A stretch of DNA of 53,657 nucleotides from a virus. Shown here piece by piece: positions 6,593-53,657 of this stretch (position 1 is its first letter; the number at the start of each line of letters is the position of its first letter). Under the pieces are notes generated by a model. That model saw nothing but the letters and a program-made list of their open reading frames with translations. It was not told the DNA's origin and searched no databases. The stretch covers positions 1 through 53,657 of the IMG/VR virus record IMGVR_UViG_3300042922_000451, one strand, 5' to 3'. A program made the translations under genes and the position numbers.

Positions 6593-7525
6593 TCAAATCA
6601 TATCATATATAACTCCAGCTACATTAAAGTCTAGAAGTATTGATCTTTCATATCCATTCACAAAGTCTCTAACTGCCATTTTCTCACCATCGAATAGACC
6701 GAAATCTACGAAGTCATCTCCATACCCTTTAGCCCAACCTGTTATAGAACCTGCGGTAGACCTAGGAATCCCTAGCATATCGTACACTTCATTTAAGAAT
6801 ATATGTCCTCTAGAATGCAACAAATCATTAGCATAATTCTGTTGACACTTTAAGAATGTCAAATTATATTCTGGTGTATTACTCCATTGAGTGCTGCTCT
6901 CATCAAAGTATCTAGCATATTGACTAATGCCATTTGGATCTGTAGTTTCAACTACTTTTGTAACTTTCTTTTCCTTTCCGTCCTCATCAATTTCGGTTAC
7001 TTTAACTTTGTTTTGTTTAATTCCGTTTTTAAGTATCCTATCTTTCTCTGACCCAAATTCATCTACTACACGCTTTCTATAATCAGAGAAGCTAGTTTCA
7101 ACAGCTTTATAAGCCGCTATAAGAGCTATGTTACGTTTCTTCATAATACCATGAGCACCAAGTACACAACCTATAGAAGCCGCACCAAGCACTATTGATG
7201 GACCATACAATTTAACAAAATCGACCCCAGTCTGTACTGTAGCAACTGTTAAGTCTTTTTTATAATCATTTTCTGAATATTCTTCACGAGATAACTCTCC
7301 GGATTCAACTTTGCCCCATGCTTTCTTTATTTTTCCTATTTTTTCCTCGTGAGTATCAAGTACTTCATCTACCTTCAAAGTTGCTCTACATGCCAATACT
7401 GTACTAGCTACTATACCAGCAACTCCAACCGTCATCAATATCTCAGGGCTATATTTTTGTAATATAAGACCACTTCTACCTGCTGTTCTGCTTATTGTAT
7501 TTTTAACCATTTCAATTTTATTCAT
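6593..7525 (-). CDS. DUF6353-like membrane-associated phage protein, 310 aa
   Basis: Resembles the phage DUF6353 family: N-terminal KYSPEILMTVGVAGIVAST with a following ACRAT, a second hydrophobic block near residues 110-130 (GPSIVLGAASIGCVLGAHGI), and a soluble C-terminal half ending LLDFNVAGVIYDMI. The ATG at 7525 has GGAGG seven bases upstream; a TTG five codons earlier is less likely. It overlaps the upstream gene by 8 nt. A second, shorter member is encoded at 10509-11339. Function of the family is unknown; two membrane spans suggest it acts at the host membrane. Confidence 0.75.
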   Translation of the reverse strand: MNKIEMVKNTISRTAGRSGLILQKYSPEILMTVGVAGIVASTVLACRATLKVDEVLDTHEEKIGKIKKAWGKVESGELSREEYSENDYKKDLTVATVQTGVDFVKLYGPSIVLGAASIGCVLGAHGIMKKRNIALIAAYKAVETSFSDYRKRVVDEFGSEKDRILKNGIKQNKVKVTEIDEDGKEKKVTKVVETTDPNGISQYARYFDESSTQWSNTPEYNLTFLKCQQNYANDLLHSRGHIFLNEVYDMLGIPRSTAGSITGWAKGYGDDFVDFGLFDGEKMAVRDFVNGYERSILLDFNVAGVIYDMI

Positions 7526-7706
7526 TTCTCTTTCCTCCAATTTTTGTATTTGTTAAGATATTATATATTGATTCCGCTTCCGAACCAATAAATGTTTTTA
7601 CACGTTCTAATCTGTTTCCAACACGTTTATCCACAGCGATAACAGATTTATCACTATTTTTGTCAATGTCAACGCTAACTATATAACTTTGACTTGATTT
7701 TAGCAT
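7518..7706 (-). CDS. Small hypothetical protein, 62 aa
   Basis: A short beta-rich protein with the phage-type pattern SYIVSVDIDKNSDKSVIAV followed by a helical FIGSEAESIYNIL end. Similar peptides accompany DUF6353 genes in other phages as far as I recall. Stop codon overlaps the start of the downstream gene (ATGAATAA), indicating coupled translation. Function unknown. Confidence 0.65.
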   Translation of the reverse strand: MLKSSQSYIVSVDIDKNSDKSVIAVDKRVGNRLERVKTFIGSEAESIYNILTNTKIGGKRNE

Positions 7707-8109: not shown

Positions 8110-8583
8110 CTATTCTAATTCAATATAAATGGTTTTCTCTGTAACTTTAACACTTACTACTTTTCTTTTCTCACCAGCGTAATCGATGCAAGAACCTATT
8201 TTGTCTATATAACTTTTCAACAATACTCCTTTAGAACAAGCAATACATTCTGTAAACCATGCATCTTCATAAGGAACTGTAAAAATAATATTCTCTCTAG
8301 CCTTATCTATTTGAGTTATTCTGAATTTATCCAAACATATTGGATCGGGTAAAGTCAATTTATAAACGCCATCCGAATTTTGCTTTATTACTGGTGGTAT
8401 GATTCTATCCCAACCATATCTAACATCCATATCTTTACCAATCCCTCCAATTATATCATAAAAATCAAATACAGATGCAACACCATATTTTATAATATTA
8501 GAATTTAAACCGTCAAGTATCAAGTCTGCATCCTTTTTATTTTCACACATTATATTACTGAAAGCCATATATCTTATATTCAT
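8110..8583 (-). CDS. Two-module phage hypothetical protein, 157 aa
   Basis: N-terminal half (DADLILDGLNSNIIKYGVAS, then YDIIGG, YGWD and LTLPDPICLD) aligns with the C-terminal third of the protein encoded just upstream at 8596-9312. C-terminal quarter aligns with the 71-aa protein downstream. It thus links both neighbours, pointing to module shuffling within this operon. No catalytic motif seen; function unknown. Confidence 0.7.
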   Translation of the reverse strand: MNIRYMAFSNIMCENKKDADLILDGLNSNIIKYGVASVFDFYDIIGGIGKDMDVRYGWDRIIPPVIKQNSDGVYKLTLPDPICLDKFRITQIDKARENIIFTVPYEDAWFTECIACSKGVLLKSYIDKIGSCIDYAGEKRKVVSVKVTEKTIYIELE

Positions 8584-8595
8584 TTATTTCTCCTC

Positions 8596-9312
8596 CTAAT
8601 CTAATGGTATAGCTCTTGGTAAATTCAATTGCCATCCACCACGTGCTCTACTTACTCTAACTCTACTAAGGTCATCCCAACCAAATTTATCATCTGTAAA
8701 GCTACTAGATATTCCAACCAAACCATACAAATCCGAAACAGTAGCTTGACCATAGTCAGTAATCAAATCAACCAAATGTCCAAGAACTTCTTCAGCTTCA
8801 TCATAAGATTCAAGAACTATATCATCAAACGTATGTCGACTTATATTTCTAGATGATGCTTCTCTTCTATCATCTCGTTTATTAGATGAATAGCTATTAT
8901 AACTTACATAAGATTTATTTCTATTTCCTCGACTTCTATTTCTAACAGCCTCACCAAATAAAGCAACTTCTATTCCAGTCTGAACGGCATCGAATATACC
9001 CTGAGCTATATCAGTTATAGTGCTTTTTGCTGAAGGAACTAATACATCTTTAATAATGTAATCCTTAACATTGATTATATCATCGGCTATAAATGTCTCC
9101 ATAAATCTTTTACTTAACGATTTTTTTCTAGTTATGACTTTACCCTGAGTAACTCGTTCAACTTTCTTGGGTTCTTCTTTTTCCTCTTTTTTATAGATGC
9201 TATTTGATGGATAAGAATCTTTAAGAAGTTTTTTATTACGGTCATCTAGTTCTATTCCGGCATGAGCGTCCTGTGCATAATCGCCAGCATCTATAATATC
9301 TTTCTTAGTCAT
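8596..9312 (-). CDS. Conserved phage hypothetical protein, 238 aa
   Basis: N-terminal charged, lysine-rich half; a helical region IADDIINVKDYIIKDVLVP; a serine/arginine-rich linker; and a C-terminal domain (AEEVLGHLVDLITDYGQATV, VSDLYGLVG, FGWDDL, LNLPRAIPLD) that is widespread in Firmicutes phages. Overlaps its upstream neighbour by 4 nt. A DNA- or membrane-associated structural role is possible because of the basic linker, but I cannot assign a function. Confidence 0.7.
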   Translation of the reverse strand: MTKKDIIDAGDYAQDAHAGIELDDRNKKLLKDSYPSNSIYKKEEKEEPKKVERVTQGKVITRKKSLSKRFMETFIADDIINVKDYIIKDVLVPSAKSTITDIAQGIFDAVQTGIEVALFGEAVRNRSRGNRNKSYVSYNSYSSNKRDDRREASSRNISRHTFDDIVLESYDEAEEVLGHLVDLITDYGQATVSDLYGLVGISSSFTDDKFGWDDLSRVRVSRARGGWQLNLPRAIPLD

Positions 9313-10449: not shown

Positions 10450-10480
10450 TTTTTAATTCCACCTTTCAAATATATCTTTC

Positions 10481-10505
10481 ATTATATGGTATGTAATTTT
10501 CGCGA
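10481..10505 (-). promoter_or_regulatory. Shared-family promoter, copy 2
   Basis: TCGC-N15-TATAAT with ATTACATA core; starts 3 nt after the stop of the upstream DUF6353-like gene and serves the 71-aa membrane protein gene. Confidence 0.75.
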
Positions 10506-10508
10506 GCA

Positions 10509-11339
10509 TTAATAATCTCTAGTCACATACTTTGGTTCAGTTTCAAAATCTAATGATAAACACGGACGTCCGTCATCTGTTAAATGACTACTAAAATATG
10601 GTTTAATCAAATCACTACCAACTTGGTCTAAATGCCATCCAACAAGGTCCCCCAACTTAGTGCCTTCCAATCCAAGTTCTTGATAAACCTGACTTAATGA
10701 TATAAACATATCACTCATTAAATCTCTGCTAAGTTTATTCAAAGCAGCTCTTATTTTATCAGCATCACTTTTAAAGTATCTGCCAGACATGACATCATAA
10801 CATAAAGTCTCTCCACTTCCAGTGATTATTACTTCGTTTTTACTAACTGGATTCTTATTTATTTTATCTTGTTTAACATCGTCTGATATTTTCTGTTCTT
10901 TTGTTTTACCTACCACCTCAACTACTTTTGCTTGATATTCCTTCAGAGCAGTTTCAGATATAGAATATAAACTGACTAGAGCTGCATTTCTACGTAGGTT
11001 TATACTATTTGCACCAACAATACATGCTATTGTGGCACCCCCCATAAGAACTGTCGGTACATAGCATTTCCATGTTAGTTTAATTACTTCTTTTTTAGTG
11101 AAATCTTTTATTATTTCATTAACTGGTGGAACCATCTTAGTTTTACCATCTATAGTCACTTCCCCATCTCTTCTCTTTCTAAAGGTCTCATCCTGAAGAA
11201 TTTGTAGAGCTTTAGGGGTAGCTCTAATACCCATTATAGTAGTACCAATCATACCAGCCACACTTATGCCTGTTAATATGGTTGGTGAATTTTTAGAAGT
11301 AAAACTACCTATCGATTTAGTTAACGATTTTATATCCAT
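10509..11339 (-). CDS. DUF6353-like membrane-associated phage protein, second paralogue, 276 aa
   Basis: Same layout as the 310-aa protein at 6593-7525: NSPTILTGISVAGMIGTTIM with following GIRATP, a second hydrophobic block near residues 88-108 (YVPTVLMGGATIACIVGANS), and an ending that matches in position (LSLDFETEPKYV). The two copies differ along most of their length, so the duplication is old or they were acquired separately. Ribosome site AGGAGG close to the start. Function unknown. Confidence 0.73.
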   Translation of the reverse strand: MDIKSLTKSIGSFTSKNSPTILTGISVAGMIGTTIMGIRATPKALQILQDETFRKRRDGEVTIDGKTKMVPPVNEIIKDFTKKEVIKLTWKCYVPTVLMGGATIACIVGANSINLRRNAALVSLYSISETALKEYQAKVVEVVGKTKEQKISDDVKQDKINKNPVSKNEVIITGSGETLCYDVMSGRYFKSDADKIRAALNKLSRDLMSDMFISLSQVYQELGLEGTKLGDLVGWHLDQVGSDLIKPYFSSHLTDDGRPCLSLDFETEPKYVTRDY

Positions 11340-11353
11340 TTGTTATTCCTCCT

Positions 11354-11662
11354 TTATAAAAATTCTTTTAACGGAATAATTTCTCCATCAGAATTAGCGA
11401 TGTTTAAATGTCCAACACTCTGTTCTAATTTCCGATAGTCATACTCCGATATACAAATTAAATTTAATCTAAATTGTGTTGCCATATTTGCGAAGTCTGG
11501 TGATTCTTTTATTGTTAGAAGATCTTGATGATTCTCTAATAATTCACGAATTAATTGTTCTATTAGAGATTCCTTAATTGAGTTCATTAAATATTCTTTA
11601 CCATGAACTAATTCTTCATTAGATATTTTTAATCGTGCTCGTATCAACTGGTGTTTTTTCAT
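11354..11662 (-). CDS. Hypothetical protein of the MKKHQ pair, 102 aa
   Basis: Begins MKKHQLIRARLKISNEELV; its upstream neighbour begins MKKHQIIQVTTSISEAELV, and both continue with helical segments and a TxFxLNLxxI-like strand. They are tandem paralogues. The ATG at 11662 has GGAG at proper distance, whereas the ATG 6 nt earlier is too close to that box. Starts inside the upstream gene (44-nt overlap). Function unknown. Confidence 0.68.
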   Translation of the reverse strand: MKKHQLIRARLKISNEELVHGKEYLMNSIKESLIEQLIRELLENHQDLLTIKESPDFANMATQFRLNLICISEYDYRKLEQSVGHLNIANSDGEIIPLKEFL

Positions 11663-11999
11663 TTTCATTCTCCTTTAAAAAAAAGTTTTTTAATAATATT
11701 TTAATATCATCTATTGTCAGATCTCCAGTATCATTACATATTTGATTAATAATCCAGTTCATTCGATCATTATCATCATGTTGAATGGCTACCAAATTTA
11801 ACGTGTAAACCGTTAAATTATTTTTGAAATCTGTTTCAACTTCCATCTTTAAGAAATCACGATTTTCAGTACATAAATTTTTTATTAATTGGATTGTCAA
11901 GTAATCTTGAATGGTACTTTCAGTTAAAATAAGTGGAGCCTTTACTAATTCAGCCTCGGATATTGATGTTGTTACTTGTATTATCTGGTGTTTTTTCAT
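11619..11999 (-). CDS. Hypothetical protein of the MKKHQ pair, 126 aa
   Basis: Paralogue of the 102-aa protein downstream (same MKKHQ start and SEAELV/SNEELV block), with a longer lysine/asparagine-rich C-terminus that overlaps its neighbour. Start chosen at 11999, preceded by GAAAGGAG; an upstream in-frame extension lacks a ribosome site. No known domain. Confidence 0.68.
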   Translation of the reverse strand: MKKHQIIQVTTSISEAELVKAPLILTESTIQDYLTIQLIKNLCTENRDFLKMEVETDFKNNLTVYTLNLVAIQHDDNDRMNWIINQICNDTGDLTIDDIKILLKNFFLKENENEKTPVDTSTIKNI

Positions 12000-12000
12000 T

Positions 12001-12231
12001 TTAGTTCTCCTTTCTAAATGCTTTATAACTAATAAATAAATCATTAACCCAATCTTTATTATTGCCTAATTCTGGATCTATAAAGCTAGCACCAATTAAA
12101 ATTTCTCTATATCCATCGCTATCCGTAACATCCCATATTTCTCTAACTATACATGTTTTTCCCTTATTTTTACCAAACAATGGACTAACGTGATTTCCGC
12201 TTTTTAAAGTTTCAAATTCTTTTAATTTCAT
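12001..12231 (-). CDS. KOW-like small protein, 76 aa
   Basis: Contains FGKNKGKTCIVREI, similar to the KOW-type turn G(K/R)NKGKxGIVR seen in the 12483-12875 product. Both could be small SH3-like barrels. Gene stop lies 1 nt before the next start. Function unknown. Confidence 0.62.
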   Translation of the reverse strand: MKLKEFETLKSGNHVSPLFGKNKGKTCIVREIWDVTDSDGYREILIGASFIDPELGNNKDWVNDLFISYKAFRKEN

Positions 12232-12928: not shown

Positions 12929-13246
12929 TTATTCACGGTACTTTTTATATAGATTTCTAATTTCATAATCTATATATGCCTGTTTATAGTTAATACTATT
13001 TTTTACTAAATCCATCACAACCATAAAATATTTAATGGCTCTAGTTAGCTCCTCAACACAAGCCCCTTTTTTCAACATATCTTTAATCAAATTAAACGCC
13101 CCACCAATCTTTGCATGGCGCATTTTAATACTTAATTCTGTCATTTCATCATAAGCTGGATAAGAAGCTTTAGGATCAAAGTTTCTAAGCTCCTCATTAT
13201 TGATTTGCATTTTGGTGATTTGTTCCAACACATTATTCTTTACCAT
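12929..13246 (-). CDS. Stand-alone segment of the phage RNA-polymerase-like protein, 105 aa
   Basis: Residues about 22-104 align without gaps to residues about 597-679 of the 944-aa protein at 46989-49823, the part that begins about 20 residues after the DxDGD motif. Shared landmarks are NFDPKxSYPAY, NLIxDM, KGA, MVVxD and NYKQxYID; about half the positions are identical by eye. The catalytic motif itself is missing. Start at 13246 has GAAAGGAG upstream; an in-frame ATG at 13300 with a GGGAG box could add 18 residues. It has its own copy of the shared promoter. It may be a subunit, a competitor, or a gene fragment kept by selection. Confidence 0.75.
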   Translation of the reverse strand: MVKNNVLEQITKMQINNEELRNFDPKASYPAYDEMTELSIKMRHAKIGGAFNLIKDMLKKGACVEELTRAIKYFMVVMDLVKNSINYKQAYIDYEIRNLYKKYRE

Positions 13247-13347
13247 TTCATTAACTCCTTTCAATTTTAGAAAAAAATATAGGCATAGCACTTCTCCCAT
13301 TTCAGGGCGTTTTAACTTTTAAACTATTAACGGCTGCTATTCCTTTC

Positions 13348-13372
13348 ATTATATGCTATGTAATCTTCGCGA
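13348..13372 (-). promoter_or_regulatory. Shared-family promoter, copy 3
   Basis: TCGC-N15-TATAAT with ATTACATA core, beginning within 2 nt of the stop of the upstream gene. It gives the RNA-polymerase-segment gene a leader of about 95 nt, longer than those of the other cassettes. Confidence 0.75.
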
Positions 13373-13373
13373 G

Positions 13374-13565
13374 CTAGTCAGCAAGAAGCCAAAGTTTTCC
13401 ATAATATAATACAGCTTCATTATATAATTCCTGAGTTACCAATGTAGTTTCATTAAGTCCCTTTGCCCATAAAACAGCCCTACTAGAATACGCATATTCC
13501 TCTGGGTATATTTTTGATAATTCTATAGTGGTGTTTTGTATTAGTCTTTTTATTTTTTCATTCAT
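13374..13565 (-). CDS. Small hypothetical protein of the KIYPEE pair, 63 aa
   Basis: Contains SKIYPEEYAYSSRAVLWAKG and a YGKLWLLAD end; the product of 15791-15979 has LKIYPEEADGGSRWSVWTMA and FGDLWLYTRK, so they are paralogues. The ATG is preceded by AAAGGTGG. A terminator hairpin sits immediately upstream, with no shared promoter between it and this gene, so expression probably needs read-through or an unseen promoter. Confidence 0.68.
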   Translation of the reverse strand: MNEKIKRLIQNTTIELSKIYPEEYAYSSRAVLWAKGLNETTLVTQELYNEAVLYYGKLWLLAD

Positions 13566-13815: not shown

Positions 13816-13850
13816 AATAATATCCCCTTTCAAAAATAAGTTTATCTTTC

Positions 13851-13875
13851 ATTATACCCTGTGTAATTTCTGCGA
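13851..13875 (-). promoter_or_regulatory. Shared-family promoter, copy 4
   Basis: TCGC-N15-TATAAT with AAATTACACAGGG between. Same sequence as copies 5 and 8. Serves the 62-aa gene and abuts the terminator of candidate RNA 1. Confidence 0.78.
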
Positions 13876-13877
13876 GC

Positions 13878-13993: not shown

Positions 13994-13999
13994 TCTTTC

Positions 14000-14024
14000 A
14001 TTATACCCTGTGTAATTTCTGCGA
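14000..14024 (-). promoter_or_regulatory. Shared-family promoter, copy 5
   Basis: TCGC-N15-TATAAT, identical in core to copies 4 and 8; drives candidate RNA 1 and directly follows the terminator of the 64-aa gene. Confidence 0.78.
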
Positions 14025-14025
14025 G

Positions 14026-14049
14026 CAAAAAAAGAAGACTAAGCTTCTT
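14026..14049 (-). terminator. Terminator overlapping the end of the 14039-14233 gene
   Basis: AAGAAG-CTTAGT-CTTCTT then seven T. The stem encodes the last residues (lysine, glutamate, alanine) and the loop holds the TAG stop. Confidence 0.8.
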
Positions 14050-14308: not shown

Positions 14309-14710
14309 CTATTCAGACTTTGGGTGATCCGTAGAATCAATATAGTTATAACTAACAGTCTCAGACCCATCAACTATCGGTATTCTTGAAGGTATATCTT
14401 GTAATTCTGGATGTTTTTCTTCCATCCACATAGCCCCTAATATATTCCAAGCCGCAGCAGTTAAATGGTCCTCGTCGGTTTGTCCGTCTAAATATTTTAA
14501 CAAATGTCTCATTCCACTATCAATCATAACACTAAGTGGAATTCCTTTTTCCCAATTTCTATCGGCATATTTTTTAGCACCTTCTTCATAATGTTTTGAT
14601 AATCTTAATAAAGCACACGCAGGTAATAAATCGCACCTACCCTTTCCATTAGGCATATCTCTAACCGCACCGGAACTAAATTCTCGTCTATTTCCACTAT
14701 CTTTTAACAT
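14309..14710 (-). CDS. dATP/dGTP diphosphohydrolase-like protein (DUF5664 type), 133 aa
   Basis: Matches the N-terminal domain family named dATP/dGTP diphosphohydrolase: SSGAVRD, GRCDLLP, LSKHYEEGAKKYADRNWEKG, IPLSVMIDSGMRHLLKYLDG and DEDHLTAAAWN, with the conserved E, D and H residues expected of an all-alpha NTP hydrolase. Likely adjusts host or phage dNTP pools; it lies two genes from thyX, which fits a nucleotide-metabolism group. Start supported by a GAGGTGA box. The exact substrate is not shown by the sequence. Confidence 0.78.
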   Translation of the reverse strand: MLKDSGNRREFSSGAVRDMPNGKGRCDLLPACALLRLSKHYEEGAKKYADRNWEKGIPLSVMIDSGMRHLLKYLDGQTDEDHLTAAAWNILGAMWMEEKHPELQDIPSRIPIVDGSETVSYNYIDSTDHPKSE

Positions 14711-15141: not shown

Positions 15142-15765
15142 CTATTTCAATAATTTTACTATATCTTCAAATATTACCGGCATTACTTCATATAATTCCA
15201 TTAATAATGGTACAGTCACTTCTCTTATTTGTGGATGCGCAGCCTGTGACGTACGTAGCCTCAAGAAGTGTCTCCACTCACGTATGTTCGCTGTCATTAT
15301 TATATCTGTCTTGAGACTATTTGGTAATACCGAACGAGCTTCTTGTGGTGTTGCTCCATCATTTAATAATGATATATAATTATATTCTGCTACTTCACAC
15401 GACCTTTTCCATTTGTCATATTCTTCATCCGTCGATTCCCAGAATAATGGCTCAATAACCGTTATTTCATCAGCTTTTCCATAATTACAATATCGCGTTG
15501 ACTCTTGTGAAAATGATGCTATTCTATGACGCACTATCTCATGAGATATCCCCCTATCCACAATAAAGCGTACTGAGAAGCTAACATGTTCTAGCACAGA
15601 TTCGTGTCCTCTATTTATGATGTTTACAATAAACTTCTCAGCTGAGCTTACTGTTATTTTTTCTTCAGATTTATAACAAACTCGTCCACAAAGTTCTATT
15701 TTTTTCAGAATATCGTGCCCTTTCAATTCATCTATAATTGAGTAACTAGCTTTAATAATGTTCAT
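15142..15765 (-). CDS. thyX: Flavin-dependent thymidylate synthase ThyX
   Basis: Converts dUMP to dTMP with methylenetetrahydrofolate, FAD and NADPH, independent of ThyA. The signature RHRxxSxxxxSxR is present as RHRIASFSQESTRY at residues 79-92, and the length (207 aa) fits the family. The segment SLKTDIIMTANIREWRHFLRLR near 150-170 matches the C-terminal active-site helix, and RTSQAAHPQIREV follows. It is co-transcribed with a small KIYPEE-pair gene upstream and nucleotide-metabolism genes downstream. Provides thymidylate for AT-rich phage DNA. Confidence 0.96.
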   Translation of the reverse strand: MNIIKASYSIIDELKGHDILKKIELCGRVCYKSEEKITVSSAEKFIVNIINRGHESVLEHVSFSVRFIVDRGISHEIVRHRIASFSQESTRYCNYGKADEITVIEPLFWESTDEEYDKWKRSCEVAEYNYISLLNDGATPQEARSVLPNSLKTDIIMTANIREWRHFLRLRTSQAAHPQIREVTVPLLMELYEVMPVIFEDIVKLLK

Positions 15766-16331: not shown

Positions 16332-16337
16332 TCTTTC

Positions 16338-16362
16338 ATTATACCCTGTGTAATTTCTGCGA
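16338..16362 (-). promoter_or_regulatory. Shared-family promoter, copy 8
   Basis: TCGC-N15-TATAAT, core identical to copies 4 and 5; drives candidate RNA 2. It lies about 30 nt beyond the stop of the SGNH hydrolase gene. Confidence 0.78.
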
Positions 16363-16393
16363 GCTAATTATTCTTCATGATAATTTATCATAT

Positions 16394-17143
16394 CTAAAAT
16401 AACCCGTTCAACAAATTAATTAATGGTATTGCTATTCTTTTATGACCGTCTTCATTTGGATGCACCCCATCTCCCTTATTAGAATAATATTTCTCAAACA
16501 TATACCCATTATTAGGATTTAATCCACTATATTTATTTGTGTCATATATAATACATCCATACAATTCAGAAATATCTCTAATAGCTTTTCTATAATCGCC
16601 TAATAAAGCTCCTGTAGCATTTTTAGTATAATCAAATACATTATCTCCGTACGTAGCAATTAACGGCGTCATTAATACTATTTTAGCCTTAGGGTACATA
16701 GCTTGCATATTATATATTGTCTCACCCAGTGCCCCTATAAATGTTTTTCTATCAGTAGAGAAGTCACCTATTGGTACATTCATCGCATAATCATTGGTAC
16801 CACCAAATATAACGATTATATCAAAGTAATCTCTAGGATATTCTTTTATGATGTCTTTATATCTATCTACAAATGCCCCATATTTAGCATTGTTATTCTC
16901 TGCAATAGTTGACTCGTTTTGTCCAAAATTATAACAGTTAGCTCCTGTTTCTTGTGCTATAATATCTATATACTTTTTAGTTCCATTCTTAGCAGTTAAG
17001 CTATCTCCTAAGAATACTATATTTTTATCACTCAATTTAGATTGGTTTTCTATTGACTCATTAGCGTTCGTACTTACCCTTGGTAACGTTGACCATAATA
17101 CCGATATAAATAACAAACCAATTGCTAATATTATTTTTCTCAT
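16394..17143 (-). CDS. Secreted SGNH/GDSL-type hydrolase, 249 aa
   Basis: N-terminal signal peptide (RKIILAIGLLFISVLWS, cleavage after about residue 27). Then block I FLGDSLT with the catalytic serine near residue 48, a glycine-asparagine block NFGQNES, block III GGTND near residue 114, and block V DGVHPNEDGH near residue 226 with the catalytic Asp and His. This is a complete esterase/lipase triad; cell-envelope members deacetylate or deacylate surface polymers. A surface-modifying accessory gene is the likely role (for example receptor alteration); the substrate is unknown. No shared-family promoter lies upstream; a terminator separates it from the 76-aa gene. Confidence 0.85.
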   Translation of the reverse strand: MRKIILAIGLLFISVLWSTLPRVSTNANESIENQSKLSDKNIVFLGDSLTAKNGTKKYIDIIAQETGANCYNFGQNESTIAENNNAKYGAFVDRYKDIIKEYPRDYFDIIVIFGGTNDYAMNVPIGDFSTDRKTFIGALGETIYNMQAMYPKAKIVLMTPLIATYGDNVFDYTKNATGALLGDYRKAIRDISELYGCIIYDTNKYSGLNPNNGYMFEKYYSNKGDGVHPNEDGHKRIAIPLINLLNGLF

Positions 17144-17691: not shown

Positions 17692-17720
17692 ATTAATACT
17701 CTCCTTTTAATTAAGATTTC

Positions 17721-17745
17721 ATTATACCCTGTGTAATTTGTGCGA
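17721..17745 (-). promoter_or_regulatory. Shared-family promoter, copy 10
   Basis: TCGC-N15-TATAAT with AAATTACACAGGG core; serves the 64-aa membrane protein and abuts the upstream terminator. Confidence 0.78.
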
Positions 17746-17746
17746 G

Positions 17747-17770
17747 CAAAAAAGAAAGCCTAAGCTTTCC
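17747..17770 (-). terminator. Terminator after the 17774-17884 gene
   Basis: GGAAAGC-TTAG-GCTTTC followed by TTTTTT, starting a few bases after the TAG stop. Confidence 0.82.
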
Positions 17771-46988: not shown

Positions 46989-49823
46989 TCAACTCCTTTC
47001 AAATATTTTAGCTATAGTACTTGTAGATACACCTAAAGCATCTGCAATCTCAGCTTGCGTATACCCAGCTTCAACCATCATTTTAGCTTTTTGTTGTTTA
47101 CCATCACTAACACCTTTATTAGTTCTAGGTGTAGCTAATTGTTTAACTTTATCAAGGTCAGTGTTACTAAGTATTTGTGTTAGAATGTTGGTACTAACAG
47201 CTCCAGCTTGTATAGCTTCCCATTCTTTATCAGAGATAGTCACTAATGTTTTTTTAGCATCAACTCTAGTACGAGCTTCTGCCATAGCTTGACCTCTTAT
47301 CTTTTTTAAATCTTCTTTAGTCATATTAGGATTAGCTGATTTTTTCATTGATACTATAGTATTACCTATAATTTGCGCTTGTCTTTCTAAAGGCGCATTC
47401 TTTAAAGCTATGTTCAAACTGGCTTTTAACGAATTAACTTCTGATTCGTATACTTGTTTAGCTGAAGGTGAATAGGGTACATACTGTGTAGTAATAGATG
47501 CTTTTCTAGCTTCATTAGCTAGACTTTTTAATTTATTAGCATGTTGAGCATACACTGTTTCCATAGGGGTACCAGATGATAATTCAAAGGCATCTTGTGC
47601 CTCAGCCATTTTAGTTGACGATATAGTACGGGGTTGTTCTTTTCCTTTCGCATCGATATATGTTTCATTTGTATATGTGTATATTTTTTTACCTGTCTTT
47701 GGATCTATTGTTTCTTTTCTTACGCCAACTCTTTCATCAGAAGACGCTTTTGATATTAATGTAGAAGATCCACTTCGTTCACTACCTTGATATCTTTTCT
47801 TTAATTCAGCAATCCCATTGTCTATATAGGACTGCTTATAATTAAGATTGTGTTTTTCAGAATCGATAACCACCATTGAATGTCTAACAGCTGCGGCTAT
47901 TTCATCATCGTTTGCTCCTTTTATGGTCATGTCGGTTATAAGATTAGATACATCCCCCATTTTCATTTGCTTAGTTCTAGGACTTATTTTAGTCATACCT
48001 TCATATGCTGGGTACGAAATTTTAGGATCAAAATTAGCAAGACCCTTTAATGGAGATGATACTTTTATTTCTCCTTTTGGATTAGGAATTACTAATACTG
48101 TATCGCCGTCAGCATCGGCACCTGATAATGTTTGAAAAGTTTTAGGATGTATTCCGATTGCATCTTTAGCATTTTTAAATAGATTATTTCCAGTTTTATT
48201 TTTATTATTTACAGTAAGTTGAGGTATTTCAAATATACCTCCATGTGGATATCTAATCAAAACTACAGTTTCACCATTTCTATAATTTGGTGCGTATACT
48301 TCATTTTTTTTGATATCTACAATTGGAAGCAATACATGTGCTGCTTGTCGTGGAAGGGCAGCTGCTTTTAGATGAACTGATGATGAATCGCAATCATCAG
48401 CGAAGGAATCAAGTAATCTTTTTTTAACAGCTGGATTAGTTAAGGACATTATCTCATCAAATTCTTCTTTCTTAATATCAAATGCTAACCCTAACTGTTT
48501 TTTAGCTAGTGCTGGAGTTTGTTTGGAAAGCATCTGTGAAGATAATGTTTTAGACCATTTACCCCAATCTCCTTCTTCGTTTACTATATTTAATGATGAT
48601 AGTTTTTTATCACCATTAGAATCTATATAATGTTTTTGCCTGACACTAGCTCCGAATGGATTATCAGGATCTGGTTTTATAGAACCATCACTTACTCCTT
48701 TTTTAATCAAATCATCTTTTTCATCTTTGGATATATTTAATTCTAGAATCGATTTAACTTTAGGATCAGTCATATCTGCAGCCATAGTTTTAAATACTTT
48801 ACTTTTATCTGTTCCTAATTTCTTATTTGTATTATATATCATGTCAACTCCATCAGGCATGTTATCCGCATATATGGCCATACCTTTCATATAATGACGG
48901 TCATCAACGCCTATACGAACTTGTGCATATTTAGCGTTACCTAAAGATATATCATCAACACCTCTTCTTAATTCAACAACTCCATCTTTATCGACTCCAC
49001 CATCGTCGGCATATCTAATCATAACTCTTTTAGAATCAACACTTCTTATTGGTTCTAAACCCAAAACAGACCTTCCACCATCTTCTGAGTAGTCAGTTAT
49101 AAGTTTAACATTATTTTTATTTTTATATACATCAGAAAAGGAATCTTTTATTAAAGATTTTACATCATCCTCACTTATTCCTAATTCTTTAGATATATCA
49201 GATTCGGACATTTTTTTATTAAATAGTTTTATAACTTCAGTTGCTTCTTTTGTTTTCGGTTTAGATAACACCATTACTGTTGTATTTTTCCCTGTTCCTA
49301 ATTGTTCCACTTGAGTATATGTTACTAAATATCCTTCTTCCTCCAACATGGCTATCGATGTTTTTAATTTATTTCTAGGTATTCCAATATGTCTTTCTAC
49401 ACCAATACCAACATCAATATAACCTTTTTTTTCAACATTTTCTTTTAACATATTAGCAATCGTATCAGTTATTTCAGAACGTTCTTTAAGAGCAGGATCT
49501 AATAACGCCCTTACTGATGATTCATTAATTCCCATTCTTTCACCAATAGCAACATTTGAATATCCTTTATCTTTCAGTCTAAGAGCTTCTGCTAAATCAG
49601 CTTTTCTTTGTTCAGCTTTAGCTATAGATTTTTTATTTCTAAGTTGAGATGTTGTCATACCCATACCTTTTGCTATTTCAACTTCACTAATACCTTTTTT
49701 TCTTAAATCATCAACATAGCCTAAAAAACTTTTATTTCTTTGTTCTGGACTATCGCCCGACCCCCATGGATATCTACCAGAGTGACGAGGAGTTCCATAG
49801 TGGAGTATAATGTTATTAGCCAT
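46989..49823 (-). CDS. Phage RNA-polymerase-like protein with DxDGD motif and multiple HTH segments, 944 aa
   Basis: Residues about 490-582 read like the catalytic double-psi barrel of two-barrel RNA polymerases: VVLIRYPHGGIFEIPQLTV, then IGIHPKTFQTLSGADADGDT with D570, D572 and D574, comparable with the beta-prime NADFDGD loop. HTH-like segments: KGISEVEIAKGMGMTTSQL near 44, KGYSNVAIGERMGINESSV near 86, MSESDISKELGISEDDVKSL near 205, and AGYTQAEIADALGVSTSTI at the C-terminus. The N-terminus HYGTPRHSGRYPWGSG is a tag typical of phage head-module proteins, so it may be packaged. A copy of residues 597-679 exists as a separate gene at 12929-13246. A YonO/QDE-1-type polymerase is the best guess; activity is not proven. 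Confidence 0.7.
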   Translation of the reverse strand: MANNIILHYGTPRHSGRYPWGSGDSPEQRNKSFLGYVDDLRKKGISEVEIAKGMGMTTSQLRNKKSIAKAEQRKADLAEALRLKDKGYSNVAIGERMGINESSVRALLDPALKERSEITDTIANMLKENVEKKGYIDVGIGVERHIGIPRNKLKTSIAMLEEEGYLVTYTQVEQLGTGKNTTVMVLSKPKTKEATEVIKLFNKKMSESDISKELGISEDDVKSLIKDSFSDVYKNKNNVKLITDYSEDGGRSVLGLEPIRSVDSKRVMIRYADDGGVDKDGVVELRRGVDDISLGNAKYAQVRIGVDDRHYMKGMAIYADNMPDGVDMIYNTNKKLGTDKSKVFKTMAADMTDPKVKSILELNISKDEKDDLIKKGVSDGSIKPDPDNPFGASVRQKHYIDSNGDKKLSSLNIVNEEGDWGKWSKTLSSQMLSKQTPALAKKQLGLAFDIKKEEFDEIMSLTNPAVKKRLLDSFADDCDSSSVHLKAAALPRQAAHVLLPIVDIKKNEVYAPNYRNGETVVLIRYPHGGIFEIPQLTVNNKNKTGNNLFKNAKDAIGIHPKTFQTLSGADADGDTVLVIPNPKGEIKVSSPLKGLANFDPKISYPAYEGMTKISPRTKQMKMGDVSNLITDMTIKGANDDEIAAAVRHSMVVIDSEKHNLNYKQSYIDNGIAELKKRYQGSERSGSSTLISKASSDERVGVRKETIDPKTGKKIYTYTNETYIDAKGKEQPRTISSTKMAEAQDAFELSSGTPMETVYAQHANKLKSLANEARKASITTQYVPYSPSAKQVYESEVNSLKASLNIALKNAPLERQAQIIGNTIVSMKKSANPNMTKEDLKKIRGQAMAEARTRVDAKKTLVTISDKEWEAIQAGAVSTNILTQILSNTDLDKVKQLATPRTNKGVSDGKQQKAKMMVEAGYTQAEIADALGVSTSTIAKIFERS

Positions 49824-52923: not shown

Positions 52924-53657
52924 CTAAAATGGAGCACAATCGTGCCCTAGTTTACATTCATTTGGACCTGATAGTTTATTATCAATAAAATATTCACAAT
53001 TAAAACAATTCCCATTACAACGGCGGTCCATATATCCATCTATTAATGCTGACATTCTACTGTTAATTGGTTTATCATCGCTAACAAACATTTCGAAATC
53101 ACCATATTTAGATATATCATTTATAGCTCTGTCAACTAATTCATTATAGTATGCTCTTTCTATATCATCCTGTTTATTTAATGTTTTAACCATTTCTGAC
53201 TCGAGCCATCTATATCCTTTACTTCCAGTAGCAGCATAAAATTTACCATCTTTTTCTCTTAATAATTCACCTCCACCTTTTCCAGGTTTAATTGGACAGA
53301 AAGAACCAACTTTACCAACAAAATGATAGTTATGACCTCTATTTATTAATACCCTAAGTTCTACTAGTTTATCATCATTAACATTTGGTAATAATCCTAA
53401 TGAATCTGTATTTTTTCTAATCCATAGATCTAATTCCTTTTCATATCTAGATACATCTTCTAAATCTTCATTCATATCTAAATATAACGCCGATGTTACA
53501 GATTTAGTTTCACACATATCTTCAAACATAATAGGTTCTTTACTGAATAATGTTTTAAATACATATGGTTGAGCAAATTGAGCACCAGTAGCAGTCCATG
53601 TATTAATCTTTTTAGTTTTAGCAGCCCATCCATATTTTGCAATGTAAACTGCGTCAT
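52924..53657 (-). CDS. Fused SF3 helicase-primase-family B DNA polymerase (C-terminal part)
   Basis: Continuation of the 1380-residue replicase gene. Position 53530 joins base 1 in the closed circle, and 53531-53657 repeats 1-127. The C-terminal 201 residues begin at 53529 and include thumb-like sequence (VGSFCPIKPGKGGGELLRE, GYRWLESEMVK) and a cysteine cluster at the end (CNGNCFNCEYF, ECKLGHDC) that could bind zinc or an iron-sulfur cluster. It ends 15 nt before the SSB gene. Confidence 0.9.
   Translation of the reverse strand, partial: DAVYIAKYGWAAKTKKINTWTATGAQFAQPYVFKTLFSKEPIMFEDMCETKSVTSALYLDMNEDLEDVSRYEKELDLWIRKNTDSLGLLPNVNDDKLVELRVLINRGHNYHFVGKVGSFCPIKPGKGGGELLREKDGKFYAATGSKGYRWLESEMVKTLNKQDDIERAYYNELVDRAINDISKYGDFEMFVSDDKPINSRMSALIDGYMDRRCNGNCFNCEYFIDNKLSGPNECKLGHDCAPF
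53531..53657. repeat. 127-bp terminal direct repeat (circular assembly overlap)
   Basis: Identical to positions 1-127. The length equals a common assembler k-mer, and the repeat lies inside a coding gene, so it marks a circular or circularly permuted genome and not a phage terminal repeat. Confidence 0.92.

Follow-up and report, generated by a model that had tools for sequence, protein, structure and literature searches.

Why would a phage that encodes a large polymerase-like protein also carry, as a separate gene, a copy of one short segment of that protein? The question is raised by a small gene in the 53,657-base virus record that was analysed here as a whole (the window), for which an earlier note, made from the letters of the DNA, had suggested that the product might replace the corresponding segment in the large protein, inhibit it or act as its subunit.

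A separate gene for one segment of the large protein

The two genes concerned are:

12929–13246, minus strand: small gene P0001, 105 aa, separate copy of the polymerase segment located after the catalytic loop
46989–49823, minus strand: gene of the large protein P0002, 944 aa, a predicted two-barrel (QDE-1/YonO-type) phage RNA polymerase with a helix-turn-helix at both ends

The coordinates first given for the small gene stand, and its strand, which had been left unstated, is the minus strand, the plus strand of 12929–13246 being interrupted by stops. In a BLASTP comparison, residues 20–104 of P0001 aligned with residues 595–679 of P0002 without gaps and with statistics far from chance (E 9e-26), 42 of the 85 positions being identical (49%) and 60 similar, and the stretches NFDPKxSYPAY, KGA, MVVxD and NYKQxYID were all found in the match. 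The earlier description of a gapless match to residues about 597–679, identical at about half of its positions, is thereby borne out. Residues 1–19 of P0001 lie outside the homologous part and are new. Matches to the module occur at exactly two places in the whole record, P0001 and P0002. The profile of PHROG 4291 ('RNA-dependent RNA polymerase') also matches P0001 (E 2e-19), at positions 533–630 of 909; while P0002 is a full member of this family, P0001 spans about 10% of it, lacks both barrels and the catalytic motif, and is not a polymerase.

Two putative expression signals precede the small gene:

13255–13262, minus strand: ribosome-binding site GAAAGGAG of P0001, 8 nt before the ATG at 13246
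13343–13374, minus strand: promoter-like element GCTCGCGAAGATTACATAGCATATAATGAAAG, 32 bp with TATAAT, about 100 bp upstream of P0001, of a family repeated in the window

A second copy of the 32 bp element, with two mismatches, lies at 10476–10507 on the minus strand; four copies of a sister element, GCTCGCAGAAATTACACAGGGTATAATG, are located at 13.85, 14.0, 16.3 and 17.7 kb of the window. The chance expectation for the element and its relatives is 0, and related elements stand upstream of other genes. Of the claim that the gene has its own promoter and ribosome site, the second part holds; the first is supported by the repetition of the TATAAT element, but a generic sigma-70 scan of the window did not include 13343–13374 among its calls. 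Judged by these signals, P0001 is likely to be expressed. Taken by themselves, the TATAAT elements are near-identical, 28–32 bp long, of two subtypes and located before small genes on the minus strand (13343–13374, 10476–10507, 13850–13877, 13999–14026, 16337–16364 and 17720–17747); they may be promoters of the phage and might even serve its own polymerase.

The large protein is a predicted two-barrel polymerase

P0002 matches PHROG 4291 with E 0 and contains Pfam helix-turn-helix (HTH) motifs near both of its ends. Its whole-length relatives, annotated as HTH protein or as RNA-dependent RNA polymerase, occur in some 250 records of phages (Arthrobacter, Gordonia, Streptomyces, Lactococcus, Curtobacterium, Rhodococcus and others). 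The AlphaFold2 (AF2) model of P0002, built from 67 family members, has a pLDDT of 84.7 and, like that of P0001, rests on a family alignment of modest depth. Its best Foldseek matches were QDE-1 (E 8.8e-8), P74-26 gp62, P23-45 gp64 and plant RDR2 (to E 3.8e-4), with low global TM-scores (about 0.25–0.35), the match of fold being one of the core only.

48102–48116, minus strand: catalytic Asp motif DADGD, residues 570–574 of P0002, just ahead of the copied segment; P0001 lacks it

The motif DxDGD is invariant in the alignment of 67 P0002 relatives and is shared with the two-barrel polymerases YonO of SPbeta, QDE-1, phi14:2 gp66, P23-45 gp64/gp96 and RDR2. The second residue in P0002 is Ala (DADGD), while nearly all of its relatives have DFDGD. 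Because of its membership of PHROG 4291, its fold matches to QDE-1 and RDR2 and its DxDGD motif, P0002 is, as far as models and profiles can tell, a single-chain two-barrel polymerase, with predicted activity, of the broad class that includes QDE-1 and YonO, the latter itself a single-chain two-barrel polymerase (PMC5467207). The earlier designation of an RNA polymerase-like active site agrees with this assignment.

The copied segment is a helical module

47787–48041, minus strand: module copied by P0001, residues 595–679 of P0002 (BLASTP match)

The copied segment begins about 20 residues after the catalytic motif of P0002. The AF2 model of P0001 alone has a pLDDT of 93.6 and is nearly all helix; its helices 40–59, 64–79, 87–93 and 96–103 correspond to helices 615–635, 639–658, 662–668 and 671–679 of the P0002 model at a constant offset of 575, and an extra N-terminal helix (3–16) has no counterpart in P0002. 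The model contains a long hairpin of two helices, of 20 and 16 residues, not a short tri-helical HTH, and no Pfam HTH matched P0001. A fold search of the PDB with the P0001 model returned nothing below E 1.8. On the strength of the model, P0001 is predicted to fold on its own as a compact helical protein. Neither the DxDGD motif nor a double-psi barrel is present in its 105 residues and AF2 model and, having no barrel and no Asp triad, P0001 is unable to polymerise.

In RDR2, the Asp triad lies near residues 830–834 and is followed by a bridge helix (885–896), a trigger helix (906–922) and the trigger-loop residue Lys923, the counterpart of which is a lysine in QDE-1 and phi14:2 (PMC8713982). 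Helices 615–635 and 639–658 of P0002, together with its invariant Lys657, follow the motif at about the same spacing as in RDR2, the lysine being located some 83–89 residues after the motif. Profile searches of PDB sequences did not align QDE-1. By an argument from spacing and position rather than from superposition, we infer a bridge-helix/trigger-helix module in the copied piece.

Stand-alone copies occur in other phages and prophages

Searches of other phage and prophage sequences yielded nine more clear copies as separate genes, of 63–288 residues, giving ten with that of the window:

L258:10099–10671: 190 aa, prophage region of Clostridiales bacterium CCNA10
L315:17715–17996: 93 aa, ribosome site GAGGAGG, whole-record profile search
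L413: 70 aa, whole-record profile search
L414: 63 aa, whole-record profile search
L422: 100 aa, whole-record profile search
L423:7420–8283, plus strand: 288 aa, Lachnospiraceae prophage, fused to a C-terminal phrog_21980/DUF6273 part
L424: 106 aa, whole-record profile search
L436 and L438: pattern scan, short genes preceded by a ribosome site

Most of the nine start behind a good ribosome site. Extra C-terminal parts are present in L258 (phrog_13999-like), L423, L436 and L438, the N-terminal FDP part is absent from the shortest copies, and the outer boundary is fixed at KY[QR] in most. Two further candidates of 61 residues, L415 and L416, are very degraded and doubtful, with E values of 3e-5 and 5e-5 in one record versus 0.006 and 0.03 in the pooled scan, and L434 was rejected (E 0.22). 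The UniProt/BFVD entry A0A8S5QFQ9 from Siphoviridae sp. ctEBu1, of 190 residues like the CCNA10 copy and labelled 'RNA-dependent RNA polymerase' without comment, matches the P0001 model (E 3.1e-6, TM-score 0.80, 38% identity) and is, from this structural match and its automatic annotation, probably another stand-alone copy.

Which copies are found depends on the search. P0001 alone, run against 50 whole polymerase-bearing virus records, found no stand-alone copy; such a single-sequence search may be too weak, the wider profile A7 having found copies in other records. Alignment-driven scans with the patterns HSMVVID and SNLITDM, neither of which fits the stand-alone copies, yielded large proteins or contig-end fragments only. 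Among 1180 order- and class-level genomes (three sets of 391–395), the only separate copy was that of CCNA10, itself the seed of one set. Of roughly 230 polymerase-bearing records or genomes scanned whole, about 3% hold a clear separate copy, a lower bound, given the many fragments among the records and the use of P0001 as sole query for the first 50. The copies suggest a previously undescribed and unnamed protein family in phages, derived from a polymerase module.

The small genes show signs of constraint

The earlier note had named absence of the gene from related phages, with signs of decay, as evidence against its proposal; what was found instead are the nine further copies, and no copy found with a stop-tolerant search was interrupted by a stop within its match, the TGA and TAG seen at L414 and L424 falling outside the gene. 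In a neutral simulation starting from the P0002 segment, 5% of runs were still stop-free at 49% identity and 17% at 70%, and the argument from stop-free reading is therefore weak for one gene and strong over ten. Between P0001 and P0002, dN is 0.37 and dS about 2 (saturated), with dN/dS well below 1, and the differences are distributed as 23, 26 and 46 over codon positions 1, 2 and 3. This constraint is supportive rather than decisive, because part of it belongs to P0002.

When residues conserved in 95% or more of 222 full-length modules are taken as invariant, P0001 keeps or conservatively replaces 20 of the 20 hydrophobic or small invariants versus four of the seven polar ones (p 0.012). With the ten copies pooled, polar invariants are lost no more often than hydrophobic ones (p 0.22), which weakens the idea of a 'dead active site' uniform across the copies. 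At positions with little or no variation among the closer relatives of P0002, P0001 carries the changes H648Y, S649F, E656V, H658N and S665A, although residue 648 is Tyr rather than His in some more distant full-length proteins. Asp654 and Lys657, the latter near the site of the trigger-loop Lys of RDR2 and QDE-1 (PMC8713982), are kept in most copies, which would fit a role at the active centre. Decay of P0001 is unlikely.

Origin, distribution and neighbouring genes

For P0001 and L422, the most similar polymerase is that of their own phage, while the own polymerase ranks 11–21 for L315, L413 and L414, and 130–187 of about 240 for P0003, L423 and L424. That most copies are nearer to the polymerases of other phages is consistent with an old divergence, with horizontal transfer or with a target that is not the enzyme of the same phage. 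In eight of the ten copies, branch lengths reach 1.4–7.4 changes per column versus a median of 0.29, those of P0001 and L315 being 0.5 and 0.96, respectively. The free tree has seven label changes with bootstrap values of 6–8; a constraint of all stand-alone copies to a single clade is not rejected (p-AU 0.66), the tree obtained under it exceeding that of the free search by 25 log units. One old family and several independent derivations are both possible from a tree of 88 columns. The shared residues H648Y and S665A were dropped as a derived mark of a single clade, the pattern with Tyr instead of His having matched only large proteins.

Seven of the nine further copies share their genome or record with a full-length polymerase gene. 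The records of L436 and L438 are fragments of 16.5 and 22 kb with no visible polymerase gene and are too short to tell. In CCNA10, the polymerase gene lies 57 kb from the L258 copy and may or may not belong to the same prophage.

Two genes in the neighbourhood of P0001 are of note:

10509–11339, minus strand: neighbour gene of the DUF6353/phrog_2152 family
8596–9312, minus strand: neighbour gene phrog_4079

A DUF6353 gene lies within about 6 kb of every copy that was found without DUF6353 as bait (the window, L258, L422, L423 and L424), and the L258 copy adjoins DUF6353 and phrog_4079 genes, kinds that also flank P0001. Phage records with a phrog_4079 match numbered 251 and those with the large polymerase 250, their organism composition being the same, and this core gene may be functionally linked to the polymerase.

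The surroundings of P0001 are also rich in duplicates, all on the minus strand: two DUF6353 proteins (6593–7540 and 10509–11339), a full and a partial copy of phrog_4079 (8596–9312 and 8110–8583) and two small proteins that look alike by eye (11354–11668 and 11619–12044). Several DUF6353 copies were likewise seen in CCNA10 and in L422/L423. Elsewhere on the minus strand of the window, nucleotide-metabolism and other accessory genes (14309–14710, 15142–15765 and 16394–17143) include a short dATP/dGTP pyrophosphohydrolase N-terminal domain, a thymidylate synthase, of the flavin type by eye, and a GDSL hydrolase whose N-terminus has what looks like a hydrophobic stretch. At the end of the window, an ORF of 201 residues (52924–53529, minus strand) matches only positions 1167–1293 of the 1304 of the phrog_4210 DNA polymerase profile, pointing to either truncation at the contig end or a split gene.

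Possible roles of the freed module

P0001 is best explained as a real, expressed-looking paralogue of a single polymerase module, the helices after the DxDGD loop. If the freed module still recognised its packing surface, on the polymerase or on an intermediate of its folding, it could compete for the module site of a two-barrel polymerase or dock near it, in its own phage or in a competing one, and the docked protein would be a non-catalytic competitor or regulator of that enzyme. An inhibitor or regulator appears to be the most likely reading, and docking on the polymerase of its own phage or of a competitor is put forward tentatively, at somewhat less than an even chance, with binding and direction of effect both putative. 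The presence of a polymerase in the same genomes, the small size and the patchy distribution fit a regulator or a factor of interference between phages. That there is a whole family of module-derived small proteins, some with extra domains, which act in trans to switch transcription of their own phage or to block the polymerase of superinfecting competitors, is a bolder proposal and on balance a doubtful one.

Almost as likely as docking on a polymerase, although in itself also rather less than probable, is an exaptation in which the module now serves a job apart from the polymerase and binds another phage or host partner, possibly as a decoy for a polymerase-sensing defence. The long branches of eight of the ten copies, the different C-terminal fusions of L423 and L258, the alteration of P0001 at residues invariant in the enzyme and the location of the genes among small genes of unknown function near DUF6353 all speak for such a change of partner, but a polymerase gene accompanies the copy in every record long enough to tell, and most copies have kept Asp654 and Lys657. 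The genes might instead be debris of recombination or partial duplication that stayed open by chance. Scattered presence, the several origins that the label changes of the free tree allow, the degraded candidates L415 and L416, and a frequency of stop-free neutral runs at which one intact copy alone would be insufficient evidence are what such debris would leave; ten clear copies with uninterrupted matches, most of them behind ribosome sites and bounded at KY[QR], and the third-position excess, low dN/dS and preserved hydrophobic core of P0001 make this origin improbable.

Among the roles that the earlier note had offered, drop-in replacement is made unlikely by the five residue changes and the new N-terminal helix of P0001. 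A trans-acting substitute or extra subunit, which would swap for the module and alter the speed, fidelity or template choice of the polymerase, is compatible with the predicted autonomous fold and with the retention of Asp654 and Lys657. Such an exchange is nevertheless unlikely, because P0002 has an intact module of its own and P0001 lacks H648, S649, E656, H658 and S665, conserved in close relatives; moreover, an internal helical module is hard to exchange in trans, and nearly all relatives manage without the small gene, so that we give this role only a slim chance. The opposite direction of descent, in which the polymerase acquired the module from an ancient small helical protein of phages and the stand-alone genes are relatives of that protein that stayed free, would accord with the monophyly that the tree test did not reject; it is nonetheless very improbable, as the region is present in all described two-barrel polymerases (PMC10770324, PMC8713982) and the stand-alone copies are rare and long-branched, their apparent clade being a possible product of long-branch attraction.

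Relation to known systems and significance

A docking regulator of this kind would have analogues elsewhere. TraR/DksA on bacterial RNA polymerase and the viral protein RIP on archaeal RNA polymerase are reported to be small proteins that act at the active centre or at the bridge helix and trigger loop (PMC6970531, PMC8448823), and the likeness to P0001 would be in the proposed mode of working on moving parts of the active centre. In contrast, no relation of sequence or fold between these proteins and P0001 was found, and an effector such as P0001 would derive from the polymerase itself. In open-licence papers, no description was found of a separate gene for the bridge/trigger region of two-barrel polymerases, nor of stand-alone or dominant-negative fragments of phage polymerases. 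The earlier statement that no such case had been described for phage RNA polymerases agrees with this literature, apart from the existence of the uncommented 190-residue database entry.

Recurrent genes for the free module would demonstrate its ability to exist apart from the enzyme, and would provide a minimal soluble probe of the bridge/trigger region. The annotation of a set of short entries named 'RNA-dependent RNA polymerase' would be corrected. The free module could also reveal a new form of self-regulation of transcription by phages or of interference between them and, if a family acting in trans is real, a polymerase would have been turned into its own dominant-negative weapon.
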